DNA of 64,000 bases from Hellea sp. (GTDB lineage Bacteria; Pseudomonadota; Alphaproteobacteria; Caulobacterales; Maricaulaceae): contig JAHDEZ010000001.1 of NCBI GenBank assembly GCA_020628425.1, positions 62,001 to 126,000 of the forward strand. Direction: 5' to 3'. Position numbers and translations under genes: made by a program. Each line of letters opens with the position of its first letter. Position 1 is the first letter of the stretch. The notes below the pieces were generated by a model. That model saw only the letters and a list, made by a program, of their open reading frames with translations. It was not told the origin of the DNA and did no database searches. Below are positions 57,374 to 64,000 of the stretch, one piece after another.

Positions 57374-58288
57374 TCAAGCGCGTTTGATTTGTCCGGCAGC
57401 CGGAACATATTCCTGAGGTGGGATAGTTGGTAATTCTGGCTCCGGCTCAGGGATTATTTCCATAGGATGTTTTTTGAGAACATTTGGATATTCAGCAATC
57501 GGGTCAAAGTTATAACTTGACGATGGTATTTCTTCTTCGGCACCAAACATGAGATAACACTCATGATGGACAATAGAAGACAAAGAACGAATAACTCGTA
57601 TCTGTGCTGGTGAGGAATAATGTTTCAAGCTATTCCTGAATAGTACCAAATCGAATTTCCCGAGACTGTCTAGTTTTGATAGAAGATGAAACTCCTTGAA
57701 CGTCACCATCTCGCGGATTGCAGGCTTCACGATCCAGTCTTCACCAGCGCGGTCAAAATAATTGACTAGGTCTCGTATGGGTAGGCCACGTTGAACTTCA
57801 AAATGCGTATATTGTGCAGCTTTTGCCCGTGTCAGAGCTGGTGACGGATAGTCTACGCCCAAGATTTCGACTTTAAAATCCGGATGTTTTTGGCGAAACT
57901 TATCGACTAATACAGCTAACGAATAAGGTTCCTGCCCACTGCTACAGGCAAAGGAAAGAATTTTTATGCCCAACTTACCTTTTTGCTCATAGAGCTTGGG
58001 CAATAAGTAATCTTGGATAACCTTTATTCCGTCCGGGTCGGGATTAAAATGAGTGTCGCGCTCTAAAAGCGACGAAACCACTTTAATGGCCAACCGAGTT
58101 TGGCCCTGGCCAAACAAATCATCAATCATCTTATTGAGATTCTGATACCCTTCCTGTCGGGCCAGCACCCCCAAACGCGTTTCAACTAGGAAGGCATGAT
58201 CATCTCCCAGATGAACACCGGCGAGTTCAAGGGTCAATCGTTTCAGAGCTTCATAATAGCTGGGTTTGAGACTTAATACTCCGCTCAT
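57374..58288 (-). CDS. Divergent CheR-like methyltransferase
   Basis: ILSFACSSGQEPYSLAVLVDKF, ILGVDYPSPALTRAKAAQY, FDLVLFRNSLKHYSSPAQIRVIRSL. Confidence 0.82.
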   Translation of the reverse strand: MSGVLSLKPSYYEALKRLTLELAGVHLGDDHAFLVETRLGVLARQEGYQNLNKMIDDLFGQGQTRLAIKVVSSLLERDTHFNPDPDGIKVIQDYLLPKLYEQKGKLGIKILSFACSSGQEPYSLAVLVDKFRQKHPDFKVEILGVDYPSPALTRAKAAQYTHFEVQRGLPIRDLVNYFDRAGEDWIVKPAIREMVTFKEFHLLSKLDSLGKFDLVLFRNSLKHYSSPAQIRVIRSLSSIVHHECYLMFGAEEEIPSSSYNFDPIAEYPNVLKKHPMEIIPEPEPELPTIPPQEYVPAAGQIKRA

Positions 58289-58656
58289 CAGCCCGTTAGT
58301 CCTGCCTGATAAAACTTGCTATTGATAATATCACTATCAAAGGGCTTCATGATATACTCGTTGGCGCCTGCATTCAAAGCTTCTGTAATCTTGAGAATAT
58401 CCCGTTCCGAGGTACAAAACAAAACCACGGGCCTGTCTCCACTGGGCTCTTGTCGCAGCGTTTTCAAGAAAGTCAGTCCATCCATGACAGGCATATTCCA
58501 ATCCAAAAGGATGACATCAGGCATGCTAGCGCGACACATGTTAAGTGCTTCGAGGCCATTTTCAGCTTCCTCTGTATTGAAGCGCATATCTGATAATATA
58601 CGTCCCGCAACCCGGCGTATCATTTTTGAGTTATCGACAATCAGACAGGTCTTCAC
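58288..58656 (-). CDS. CheY-like single-domain response regulator
   Basis: CLIVDNSKMIRRVAGRIL...PDVILLDWNMPVMDGLTFLKTLR...EYIMKPFD. Confidence 0.95.
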   Translation of the reverse strand: MKTCLIVDNSKMIRRVAGRILSDMRFNTEEAENGLEALNMCRASMPDVILLDWNMPVMDGLTFLKTLRQEPSGDRPVVLFCTSERDILKITEALNAGANEYIMKPFDSDIINSKFYQAGLTG

Positions 58657-59642
58657 GAAACGGCCTCTTGCTCTGATGGAATTGCAGGCCGCGCGGGAAT
58701 ATTTCTAATTTCCAGCCGAATGATGTCCTCTTGGAAATCTAAGTAAGGCGACAAACCACAAGCTCTTAAGTCTTTGACGATTGATTGCGCCAATCCTTCC
58801 TCAAACCCCTGACCGCCACAACTCAACAACACCGTCAAAGTCTTTTGCTTAAAACGAGCGGTCACCGCCATGTGGGCAGACCGACTTAGACCTTTGGCCT
58901 CCAAAGTTTCTGGTGTTCCAACACTTTCAGAAATCAGAATCTCGCCAAACCCTCTTAGGCCGGATTGAATTTTGTTTAATATGTCGGATGCCACAAGGGC
59001 GTCATCACATGCGGAAGAGACACTTATCGATTTTCCTTGAGAACGGGCCTCTCTCAACCATCCATTTGTTAGCGCCGGCAAAATAACATCAAATTGCTCA
59101 AGATCAGATACTAATCCTGCGCGTGGAATCATATTCTTCCTAGAATACACCTGAGTCTTACTATCGGCCTTTCCTCGGTTAGCTGCCAAGTTAACCAATT
59201 TAAACAGGCTCGGACGGTCTTCTTTGTTAGCATATTTAATCAAAGGGACCAGTGTGCGAGCCGTCTCAATTTGGCGGGTCAATTCCGACACGATTGCGGG
59301 TCCAACTGGATTTGTTTTTTCAGATTTGACGACCGGGCTGATCTGCGGTGCAATTTCTGAAAGCCCGCTCTCATATTGATTGATAAGTTTCTGCAGAACC
59401 AGAACCGAACTTGCGCAATCAGTTGGTGACCGATGCCGCGTCAGATCATCGATAACAGTTTGGGCCGATTTATAGATATATCTCGCTCGCATGAGCTTGG
59501 CCTGTGATTGAATTTCGGAAAGACGCATTACCACATCTTCCATGGGGACCTCACCACCGGAAAACATTTCAGACATGTGATTGCGGCACAGATTCATGAA
59601 TCTGCGGGCAGCTATCAGATCATCTCCGCATTTTTCGGCCAT
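58653..59642 (-). CDS. Degenerate CheA-like protein (hypothetical)
   Basis: Hpt-like helical N-terminus and C-terminal ESVGTPETLEAKGLSRSAHMAVTARFKQKTLTVLLSCGGQGFEEGLAQ resembling the CheA P4 segment. Confidence 0.5.
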   Translation of the reverse strand: MAEKCGDDLIAARRFMNLCRNHMSEMFSGGEVPMEDVVMRLSEIQSQAKLMRARYIYKSAQTVIDDLTRHRSPTDCASSVLVLQKLINQYESGLSEIAPQISPVVKSEKTNPVGPAIVSELTRQIETARTLVPLIKYANKEDRPSLFKLVNLAANRGKADSKTQVYSRKNMIPRAGLVSDLEQFDVILPALTNGWLREARSQGKSISVSSACDDALVASDILNKIQSGLRGFGEILISESVGTPETLEAKGLSRSAHMAVTARFKQKTLTVLLSCGGQGFEEGLAQSIVKDLRACGLSPYLDFQEDIIRLEIRNIPARPAIPSEQEAVS

Positions 59643-59756: not shown

Positions 59757-60428
59757 TCAGGCCGCGTTTTGAGCCTGTTTCGACGGTAGAAAAACCATAA
59801 ATCGTGCTTCTTCATCATTCAGGGAAGAATCGATCCGACCGCCCAGTTCTCTGACTAGCATGCCCGCATAAAAAGGTTGAATGGTGCGACCATCGAACCC
59901 GTCCTCCGGGGCGCGCCCGGTTAAGGACCGCTGAAATTCCTCATAAATCCTAGCTTTGGGCCCTTTAGCCGTCAGATTATAAATCGAGGCATCAGCCTTT
60001 TTTGTAAGCTCAATGACAAGCTCACCACCCCTTGGAATACTTTGTAAGGCGACCATCACCAGGTTCAGCAAGAGACGCCCTTGCGTTTTCTCAACTTCAG
60101 TCAGAGACGTTTCAAATCTGATGGAGGCCTTCCCTGCGCCGTACATATCCTGTACCAGTGTTTCCAGCTGTCCCATGCCGAGCATGCCTGGGGCTGATGT
60201 GCCAGCTCCAAAAGCCAACCGTAAAAATTTAAGTTTATTTGATGCTTGCCCTGCTGATGTTCGCACCAGATCCATAGCATCTTCATGCATATCAGCATTG
60301 CTTTCGTCATTCAGCACTTCTAGCGCGGCACCCAAAGCTCCAATAGGGCTAACCAAATCGTGACAAATGCGAGCGCACATCAGCGCCGCCAGACTGGAAG
60401 GTGTCAGTTTCGAAGTTTTATCGGACAT
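59757..60428 (-). CDS. chpT: Histidine phosphotransferase ChpT
   Basis: SSLAALMCARICHDLVSPIGALGAALEVLND; degenerate HATPase-like C-terminal half. Confidence 0.88.
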   Translation of the reverse strand: MSDKTSKLTPSSLAALMCARICHDLVSPIGALGAALEVLNDESNADMHEDAMDLVRTSAGQASNKLKFLRLAFGAGTSAPGMLGMGQLETLVQDMYGAGKASIRFETSLTEVEKTQGRLLLNLVMVALQSIPRGGELVIELTKKADASIYNLTAKGPKARIYEEFQRSLTGRAPEDGFDGRTIQPFYAGMLVRELGGRIDSSLNDEEARFMVFLPSKQAQNAA

Positions 60429-60511: not shown

Positions 60512-60904
60512 TTATTTTGAAATCCAGACGCCGTCTGCACCTCGAACTTTTTGCCCACTCGGAGCATTTGCTACCAGCTTCTCACCAGTCAATTGCGCGA
60601 TGACTTCGGTTTGAACATTTTGCTGACGCGCCTTTTGGGTAAAAACGGTTTTGCGTCCAATATTGATTTCATTCATAGCGTCTTCAATATCTTGTGGCAA
60701 AGGCTCTGACACGGCCGAAAGATAGCCCGTGATACTTTCACCAATAACGCCATCGGCCTTAGCCTGATCTACGACCTGTTTAGCATCGCTGGCTTGAGCG
60801 TGAGCTGTGCCCGCCAAGGACGTAGTTATTGCCACGGCGCCGCCCACCATGAAGATCGCGGCCAATAGAGCTGTGATTGATTTCTTAAAAGTCATATTTA
60901 GCAC
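60512..60904 (-). CDS. YdbL family (DUF1318) periplasmic protein
   Basis: SDAKQVVDQAKADGVIGESITGYL...VFTQKARQQNVQTEVIAQLTGEKLV. Confidence 0.88.
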   Translation of the reverse strand: MLNMTFKKSITALLAAIFMVGGAVAITTSLAGTAHAQASDAKQVVDQAKADGVIGESITGYLSAVSEPLPQDIEDAMNEINIGRKTVFTQKARQQNVQTEVIAQLTGEKLVANAPSGQKVRGADGVWISK

Positions 60905-61159: not shown

Positions 61160-64000
61160 TTAGTTCGTGATGGCCTTTTTAACCTCTTCAGCGATCATAG
61201 TTCCCAATTGGAAATTTCGAATGATATTCAACAACTCTCCTTCAATTCGTACGTTGAATTTGAAGGGTATTCCATAAAGCACATCTGGATTGGAACCTTG
61301 GAAAACAAGACGTAAAACAATCAAACCATCTAACGGTCCGTTAAAAGTTGCTTCCAATTCCTCATATTTAAATTCCTTCAGGGAATCAAAGGCATAGCCT
61401 GCATAGGCATTAACATCGGCAGCCAAATCGGTTTGCGCTGAGGAGAACTTTATCACACCACCGTCTTTGACACCAATAGTCCCGTTTTCAACCTCTACAT
61501 TCAGGCCATCAACCTTAATAGGCATTCGTCCATTGACCGTCCCGCTCACAAAGAAGTTTTCACCGCCAAGATCGCTGAACAAGTCCTCAAGTTCAACATT
61601 AATGACATTAAGCTCTACCCGGTTTATATCCCTGTCATAGCGCCACTCTGTTGGGTTCAATGCAACAGACCCTCTCCCCAATGGCCACTGCGCTTTTTGT
61701 ATTTCAAATCCCCCCGGTATTGCTTCAAATTCGACAATACCGTCTTTGAGCGGAAACCCCGGATCAAATTCGTCAATCGTCACAAATTGCCGACCTTCAG
61801 ATACTAAAGGAAAAAACGACGCAAATTTTAGTTCTGTATTGATACCAGACATAGGGCCAGGCATTGTGCCCATACTCATATCAATCAGACGCGCGGACCC
61901 CGAGGATTTTAACTCTTCTCCATCGGCAAACTCTAACTGCATATTGACTTTAGCCGCACCTTCGACACTGCTTATTTTACCTTTTAGTATCGGGATTAAC
62001 ATTTGCGGTTGCAGCCCTCGAGGTGTGAAATAAATCTCGGGGATATCGACATCCGCATAGCCTCGGCTATCCACAAAACGATAGTCGACATTTAACGGCG
62101 TTACCCCGTCAAATGGCAAATAACTGTCTGCGGCGCCAAACCAGTTATCGTCATTATAATCTACATAACCGTCCATCTTGAAAGGTGGAAAATCAGTGGC
62201 GGTAAAGCTGATATCCCCGTTTTGATAGTTCACCCGAAAAGCCTCCGGTTGACCAGCAACTTGAACGGATAACCCCCTGGCATTAACGGCCTCTGTTTTG
62301 ACAGAGGCAGACGGCGTATCAATTGTAAATTCCGTTTTGCCATTCTCATCGAGAAACGCCGTTATGTCCGCTCGGTTTGCTGACATCACAGTCCCCTCAC
62401 TCGGCATGTTATCCGACGTCATTTGGATATCAACTCCATCAATCTGCCAACTTTGCGAAGTTCCGATTTTGGCATCAATCAGTGCCTGTCCAAAGGCAAT
62501 GCTCAGAGCACGTGTTTGCTCTAAATTTTCCAACTCCATACTCAGAGCACTGACTTGCGCGGACAAACTACCTTCATCATTGCCCAGTGTGAAATTCGGT
62601 TTTTCACCGGACTCCAGAAGGAATTTTATATTCCTAGCTTCCCATGGAATGTCAGATAGAAATCGGTCAATAGTTATTGGGCGGGCTTCGTCAGGCTGGA
62701 AATAAAGACGGGACGTAACCCCCAAATCCCCTGTAAAATATCCAGAGGTCTTTAGCCCCTCCACATATCCACCGGGAATATTGCCGTCAAAATCCAGTTG
62801 ACCCGATAATATGAGACGACGCCGGTTTTGTGGCCCGCCAAAATTCACCTTGGCAGATGTTGGCGCTAATCGAACTGGACGAGCTTCGCCCGTTTGGGCC
62901 ACCCAAACTTTGGGTAGGGTAATCTGACCCTCGAATGATTTTGTGCCTTTTATATTACGCCCATTAGTTGAAACCAATTCGAGCCGAGAGCCGTTGAAAT
63001 ACATCGGATAAGGTCCATCCAAACTGGCATTTATCAATAGTCGCATTGACTGCTCAGGGCGATTAAACAGAAGTACCGGACCATCAAGGTTTGGCTGCAA
63101 TACCGCGCTTTGAGAGGATGTCCGCCAATTTAAAGGACCATGCAGAGATATAGTCATAGACTGGGGCGCTTTGTGAATTCGCCCTTTGCCATCAATGGTT
63201 GCCCTATCAAACAATCTGCCAATAGAGCGGGTTAGAGGCTCAGCAAAATCCTCTGTCACCGGAGTTCGCGATAGGCTTTTGTACAGTGAGAGCGTTTCAG
63301 CAATCTCACGTTTGTCTTCTTTGCGTGTGATTGAAAACGCGTCGACCGATGTTTCCCATTCACCATCGGCTAGGAGAATATTTCCGTCACCTCGGGTCAT
63401 GCCGATAGCACCGTCCCAATTAAGCGTCGTATTCTCTATCTCAACAGCAGCTCCTTCGAAAAAACCCAACTTGGTGGATAGCGGACCTTCCAGATAAAAA
63501 GCATCTTCTTCCAATCGATAAGCCCCCTCTCCGCTCAGGCTCAATACCTCCCCGCGCATTTTTTTATAAGTCCACTTCGGTACAGAAAGTTCAAAGACCG
63601 CGTGGTTGCGGCCCTGTGTGTAGTCGACCTGGACTTTACCCAAAACGTCAAAACTTACATCCCCGTATTTTATGTTGGCAGGCATGATTTCGATACCTGC
63701 ATTGAAAGTGTCAGTACTCTGCATCGTCCCGTTTACGACTGAGGTCACAGTCCCAAAGGGACTGATTAAGTCCATTTGACTATTTGTTATCACAATACCT
63801 TTTGGTGGAAATATGAAACCCTCCCCATCTCCTGTTCTTCCACTAGTTTCAAATGGCAGAGACAACTGGCCATTTTCATCAATGGAGACGCTGGCGTTGA
63901 TACCGTCGGCGGTGATTTTTTTGAACCGTCCCTCCAAAGCATCGCGCCAAGCATAGTCAATATTCAGAGTTTTCGCTGTAAGGATCCTAACGTTATCTCT
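61160..64000 (-). CDS. YdbH-like AsmA-family intermembrane transport protein (partial; frame stays open to the right edge)
   Basis: Long beta-rich protein with C-terminal SAQTDLAADVNAYAGYAFDSLKEFKYEELEATFNGPLDGLIVLRLVFQGSNPDVLYGIPFKFNVRIEGELLNI; adjacent ynbE/ydbL; frame continues upstream of the listed TTG start. Confidence 0.85.
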   Translation of the reverse strand, partial: RDNVRILTAKTLNIDYAWRDALEGRFKKITADGINASVSIDENGQLSLPFETSGRTGDGEGFIFPPKGIVITNSQMDLISPFGTVTSVVNGTMQSTDTFNAGIEIMPANIKYGDVSFDVLGKVQVDYTQGRNHAVFELSVPKWTYKKMRGEVLSLSGEGAYRLEEDAFYLEGPLSTKLGFFEGAAVEIENTTLNWDGAIGMTRGDGNILLADGEWETSVDAFSITRKEDKREIAETLSLYKSLSRTPVTEDFAEPLTRSIGRLFDRATIDGKGRIHKAPQSMTISLHGPLNWRTSSQSAVLQPNLDGPVLLFNRPEQSMRLLINASLDGPYPMYFNGSRLELVSTNGRNIKGTKSFEGQITLPKVWVAQTGEARPVRLAPTSAKVNFGGPQNRRRLILSGQLDFDGNIPGGYVEGLKTSGYFTGDLGVTSRLYFQPDEARPITIDRFLSDIPWEARNIKFLLESGEKPNFTLGNDEGSLSAQVSALSMELENLEQTRALSIAFGQALIDAKIGTSQSWQIDGVDIQMTSDNMPSEGTVMSANRADITAFLDENGKTEFTIDTPSASVKTEAVNARGLSVQVAGQPEAFRVNYQNGDISFTATDFPPFKMDGYVDYNDDNWFGAADSYLPFDGVTPLNVDYRFVDSRGYADVDIPEIYFTPRGLQPQMLIPILKGKISSVEGAAKVNMQLEFADGEELKSSGSARLIDMSMGTMPGPMSGINTELKFASFFPLVSEGRQFVTIDEFDPGFPLKDGIVEFEAIPGGFEIQKAQWPLGRGSVALNPTEWRYDRDINRVELNVINVELEDLFSDLGGENFFVSGTVNGRMPIKVDGLNVEVENGTIGVKDGGVIKFSSAQTDLAADVNAYAGYAFDSLKEFKYEELEATFNGPLDGLIVLRLVFQGSNPDVLYGIPFKFNVRIEGELLNIIRNFQLGTMIAEEVKKAITN

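Follow-up and report, generated by a model that had tools for sequence, protein, structure and literature searches.

A CheA-derived protein without catalytic residues in the chpT neighbourhood of Hellea and its relatives

The window analysed here is a stretch of 64,000 nucleotides from Hellea sp., comprising positions 62,001 to 126,000 of the forward strand of contig JAHDEZ010000001.1 (assembly GCA_020628425.1). On its minus strand lie, in this order, the genes for a small secreted-type protein, the histidine phosphotransferase ChpT, a protein that we refer to as X, a CheY-like receiver and a CheR-like methyltransferase (Table 1). Gene X is preceded by a ribosome-binding-site-like GAGAGG and is separated from chpT by a gap of 114 bp; it overlaps cheY by 4 bp, and cheY in turn overlaps cheR by 1 bp. 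The small secreted-type gene stands upstream of chpT at most of the loci that carry X, and also at several loci that do not.

Table 1. Features of the chpT locus, in window coordinates and in the order of the minus strand.
Feature	Coordinates	Strand	Description	Evidence
Small secreted-type protein	60512..60904	(-)	conserved upstream of chpT	locus comparison
chpT	59757..60428	(-)	histidine phosphotransferase of the CckA-ChpT-CtrA relay	Pfam HPTransfase 9.5e-29; NCBIfam ChpT 2.3e-66
Gene X	58653..59642	(-)	329 aa, ATG start; CheA-derived, without catalytic residues	
N-terminal four-helix bundle of X	59352..59639	(-)	residues 2-97; Hpt/CheA-P1-like	AF2 and Foldseek
Two short helices of X	59181..59285	(-)	residues 120-154; where CheA has its P3 dimerisation hairpin	AF2 secondary structure
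P4-like (GHKL) domain of X	58704..59093	(-)	residues 184-313; ATP lid and G2 box deleted	profiles, AF2, Foldseek
Former N box of X	58923..58940	(-)	residues 235-240; NAxDHG replaced by ILISES	HMM alignment, column contents
Former G1 box of X	58806..58820	(-)	residues 275-279; DDGRG replaced by CGGQG	HMM alignment, column contents
CheY-like receiver	58288..58656	(-)		Pfam Response_reg 2.1e-27
CheR-like methyltransferase	57374..58288	(-)	without FFR motif (THFNPD)	CheR 6.5e-36; motif table

A first-pass annotation had aligned the C-terminus of X by eye with the P4 domain of CheA. As a single sequence, protein X has no match in Pfam or NCBIfam, and a single-sequence search of the PDB gave nothing useful; its myoglobin matches, with E-values of 0.5 to 2, were set aside as chance. 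When a profile built from 19 orthologs of the same family of the order was compared with the PDB, 10 of the 11 chains listed were CheA, all of them matched in P4 and with E-values from 3.5e-5 (best) to 1e-3, and many genomes of the order, as well as of the class, encode CheA-size proteins whose P4 the profile also matches. Direct comparison of the C-terminal part with CheA P4 by hhalign gave 97.4% at an E-value of 1.1e-11. The C-terminal profile scored 18-40 bits against 16 CheA proteins, and since the best of 100 column-shuffled profiles reached a maximum of 9.5 bits, a chance resemblance to CheA is ruled out. The whole-protein AF2 model, built from 9 sequences, is only moderate in quality (pLDDT 67.8, pTM 0.42), and the GHKL order of elements is present in it; the best Foldseek matches of this model are CheA P3P4 and P4 (E 6e-6 to 5e-5), with an rmsd of 2.5-3 Å over approximately 175 columns for several P4 entries. 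The alignment made by eye is borne out, far above the level of chance. A HATPase_c/P4 domain related to CheA is present in X by ortholog profile, hhalign and fold, and profile search, profile-profile comparison, fold and synteny all speak for the descent of this domain from CheA.

The replacements that the first-pass annotation had read at the former N and G1 boxes prove to be correct in register (Table 1), and the losses are conserved: the canonical Hpt histidine, the N-box Asn/Asp and DDGxG are absent in all 35 non-redundant X homologs. The columns formerly occupied by these three motifs are variable, while others are invariant (F15, A53, Y90, G93, L149, L196 and S209), and 27 of the 35 homologs still have Gly277 of the former G1 box. 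The ATP lid and G2 box, both visible in the CheA alignment, are missing from X, and Pfam finds no CheW-like P5 domain in the protein. These results support the first-pass view of X as a CheA relative that has lost its phospho-acceptor and, to judge from the residues, ATP binding.

AF2 predicts four helices for residues 1-104 of X (pLDDT 81.9), and Foldseek matches this N-terminus best to Hpt proteins, among them CheA P1 in complex with CheY6 (probability ~1.0, E 0.07-0.2). From the predicted fold and the position of the bundle, an Hpt nature is likely. The sequence similarity found by hhalign is not significant, either between the N-terminus and CheA P1 or between the middle region and CheA P3. 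X has no Pfam match to the P3 dimerisation domain (PF02895), in whose place it has a short helical hairpin, and the match of the X profile to the chpT-linked CheA starts from about profile position 125 and spans this hairpin region. The first-pass reading of the Hpt motif stood in part: the phospho-acceptor histidine is absent as proposed, but QSQAK are not the aligned residues, since in the collinear Hpt register given by hhalign H-T-I-K-G aligns with S42-E43-I44-Q45-S46, and this best register (SEIQS) lies three residues upstream. A well-conserved stretch on the Hpt-like helices comprises I44, A48, A53-R54, I56, A60, Y90 and G93. The N-terminal profile also hit 5cwf, a designed helical repeat, a match that was discounted as a general resemblance between helices. 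No match to the ChpT family (PF10090) was found in X, and two of the 19 orthologs match it weakly (best E 0.079).

Three states of the chpT locus are found in the order: a full che operon; chpT-X-cheY-cheR; and chpT-cheY-cheR or chpT-cheY without cheA. Eight relatives have chpT-cheA-cheW-cheY-cheB-cheR at the place held by X in others, and the chpT-linked CheA of this full operon, approximately 910 aa long, contains Hpt, P3 and HATPase domains and two CheW domains. In a tree of ChpT, CheY and CheR, the X loci form one group that is split from all others with a support of 1.0. The descent of X from the chpT-linked CheA itself rests on synteny; branches in the P4 tree are long and X is not placed with the chpT-linked CheA over other CheAs, and some unlinked CheAs score higher with the X profile than the chpT-linked one does. 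Loci with chpT-cheY-cheR and without any cheA are widespread in the order (L062, L063, L066, L067 and L070-L072); since such loci without X exist, X is dispensable in some lineages. Between chpT and cheY-cheR in genome G093, which belongs to another family of the order, lies a stand-alone CheA remnant of 363 aa (L065:8009-9100) that lacks the Hpt histidine, P3 and P5 and keeps a VRNACKHG N box, DDGCG and the lid. This protein falls outside the X clade, and hence it is an independent and less advanced reduction.

Of 137 genomes of the family, 56 carry X, with intact frames and in 8 genera; the named relatives comprise Hellea MAGs and uncultured Caulobacterales/Hyphomonadaceae MAGs. Among 289 genomes spread over the class, none outside the family showed a full-length X, and a literature search of partial coverage found no account of the gene, nor of any CheA pseudokinase next to chpT. 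CheW domains are entirely absent from 50 of the 56 X genomes, with a Fisher p of 6e-15, a value that ignores shared ancestry. Six X genomes (G033, G224, G273, G274, G275 and G278) have CheA/CheW matches on other contigs, and this shorter CheA/CheW set is possibly a second che system that was gained separately. MCPs were absent in 18 of the 20 X genomes tested; the exceptions, G033 and G273, possess a CheW system elsewhere as well. Each of the five full-operon genomes tested gave 5-14 MCP matches. The genome to which the window belongs (99 contigs, completeness 100, contamination 5.4) has no match to PF02895, CheW, CheB, MCP, flagellin or FliG, and, with no match to flagellin or FliG, an action of the CheY-like protein on a usual flagellar switch is improbable. 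Flagellin and FliG matches are also missing in several of its relatives. There are X genomes with a divergent FliG and a flagellin, so that loss of motility is not general in the X clade.

In the CheY-like protein of the window the phospho-Asp, Thr and Lys are intact and the second acidic residue is Asn (VDNSK). This residue of the metal site is lost in 11 of 35 X loci (L001-L008, L013, L033 and L034), being Asn in the group of the window's own genus and Arg or Gln in another genus (VDRSA, VDQS); at all full and X-less loci examined it is Asp. The CheY of X loci also has its own signature (SKMIRRVA, FCTAERD; SRVIRKVA/FCTTEND at full loci), which follows the species clade and is therefore not independent proof of contact with X. 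In the CheR of X loci, FF is not followed by Arg (THFNPD and similar), a residue of the FFR motif that in CheR proteins generally matters for methylation; all eight full-operon CheRs have FFR, as do most of the X-less ones, and the SAM-site motif GCSSGQE is largely kept in the CheR of X loci. This FFR-less form occurs at X loci though the window's genome shows no chemoreceptors.

On balance we favour the explanation that X is a dead remnant of the chpT-adjacent operon CheA which acts without catalysis, and whose most likely partner is the co-translated CheY-like receiver. The lineage would have lost its chemoreceptors, CheW and CheB, and CheA would then have lost catalysis and kept its protein-binding surfaces. 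The pseudo-Hpt and P4 surfaces of X may hold or read the CheY-like receiver, much as DivL reads DivK~P, and a phosphoryl group on this receiver would come from another protein, for which ChpT is the nearest candidate. From the overlap of X with cheY, the conserved residues of the Hpt helices and the distinct CheY signature of X loci, we infer a mode of action by binding, in which the translationally coupled CheY-like protein is the probable partner, and a scaffold role is plausible.

Several other explanations were weighed against this. X might be a functionless, decaying CheA pseudogene, which would accord with the stepwise loss of domains from CheA, with the complete loss of the gene in some relatives and with the faster evolution of X relative to chpT and cheY. 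However, dN/dS of X between two close orthologs is approximately 0.10 overall (0.07 for both the N-terminus and the P4-like domain and 0.26 for the linker, with chpT lower at 0.03), all of these ratios being approximate since dS for the pair is 1.4 and near saturation. X is clearly under purifying selection; as this ratio is accompanied by open frames in all 56 genomes and 8 genera, and by the invariant residues named above, the evidence argues against a pseudogene, and we regard decay as highly improbable. It is scarcely credible that X still binds nucleotide or phosphorylates through non-canonical residues, for although the P4 fold is retained, and Gly277 with it in most homologs, neither of the two Asn/Asp positions nor DDGxG has been preserved, variable residues standing in their stead, and the lid and G2 box have been deleted.

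A catalytic role of another kind could have persisted, for instance that of a CheY~P phosphatase acting through the Hpt-like helices in the style of CheZ or CheX, with Arg54, Tyr90 and Glu96 as candidate residues. Conserved polar residues do occur on the Hpt-like bundle and the phosphorylation residues are kept in the CheY of most X loci, but neither X nor its orthologs match CheZ or CheX in Pfam, the conserved residues are equally explicable as structural or contact residues, and loss of the second acidic residue of CheY fits ill with a dedicated CheY~P phosphatase at the loci concerned; we consider a phosphatase decidedly unlikely. The partner of X could also be ChpT rather than CheY, X serving as a pseudo-subunit which, docked to ChpT, modulates the CckA-ChpT-CtrA relay. 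The adjacency of the two genes agrees with this, as does the nature of ChpT, itself a degenerate histidine kinase (Pfam HPTransfase), and CheA P4 can dock an Hpt-type helical domain. Nevertheless, X is separated from chpT by a gap whereas it overlaps cheY, chpT occurs without X in many genomes, and X has no recognisable DHp domain, all of which makes ChpT a rather unlikely partner.

The explanation we prefer, a dead CheA remnant that binds the CheY-like receiver, may be extended to its neighbours, although only tentatively. Once chemoreceptors had gone, together with flagella in the case of the window's genome, the chemotaxis trio could have been rebuilt next to the ChpT cell-cycle relay as a module that needs no receptors and possibly no phosphorylation, consisting of a dead CheA, a CheY that has lost its second acidic residue in part of the clade and an FFR-less CheR. 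That X is kept by bacteria without chemoreceptors suggests that a dead enzyme has been reused as a binding or regulatory protein. It offers a natural case of the conversion of a kinase into a pseudokinase, maintained in such bacteria, and a single chromosomal place shows all stages: the full operon, the L065 remnant with an intact-looking ATP site, the dead remnant and the gene lost. Furthermore, it makes testable a possible takeover of chemotaxis proteins by the ChpT/CtrA cell-cycle relay, and the role of CheY and CheR where there are neither receptors nor a flagellar motor.

Among known proteins, the chpT-linked CheA resembles X in its P4-like fold, in the succession of an Hpt-like bundle, a helical hairpin and P4, and in its operon place between chpT and cheY. 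In contrast to that CheA, X is without the Hpt histidine, N box, DDGxG, ATP lid, G2 box, a recognisable P3 sequence and the P5/CheW domains, and its setting differs, as the window's genome is without CheW, CheB and MCP. The G093 protein is, like X, a stand-alone CheA remnant in the position between chpT and cheY-cheR which has lost the Hpt histidine, P3 and P5, but it keeps the N box, DDGCG and lid, all three of which X lacks. DivL is a pseudokinase that binds DivK~P and no longer has kinase or phosphatase activity (PMC4211667). As an alphaproteobacterial pseudo-histidine kinase linked to CckA-ChpT-CtrA it may be a precedent for X by mechanism, although DivL derives from a sensor kinase of the PAS type, whose DHp domain has Tyr in place of His, and X from CheA. 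CheA3 of Rhodobacter sphaeroides is, like X, a CheA with a degenerate HATPase domain, which is reported to be non-functional (PMC10542144); CheA3 retains the P1 histidine and P5 and acts together with CheA4 within a receptor array, whereas X has neither and there are no array parts in its genome. A dead P4 therefore has a precedent in CheA3, and what appears new here is a free-standing, double-dead CheA without an array.
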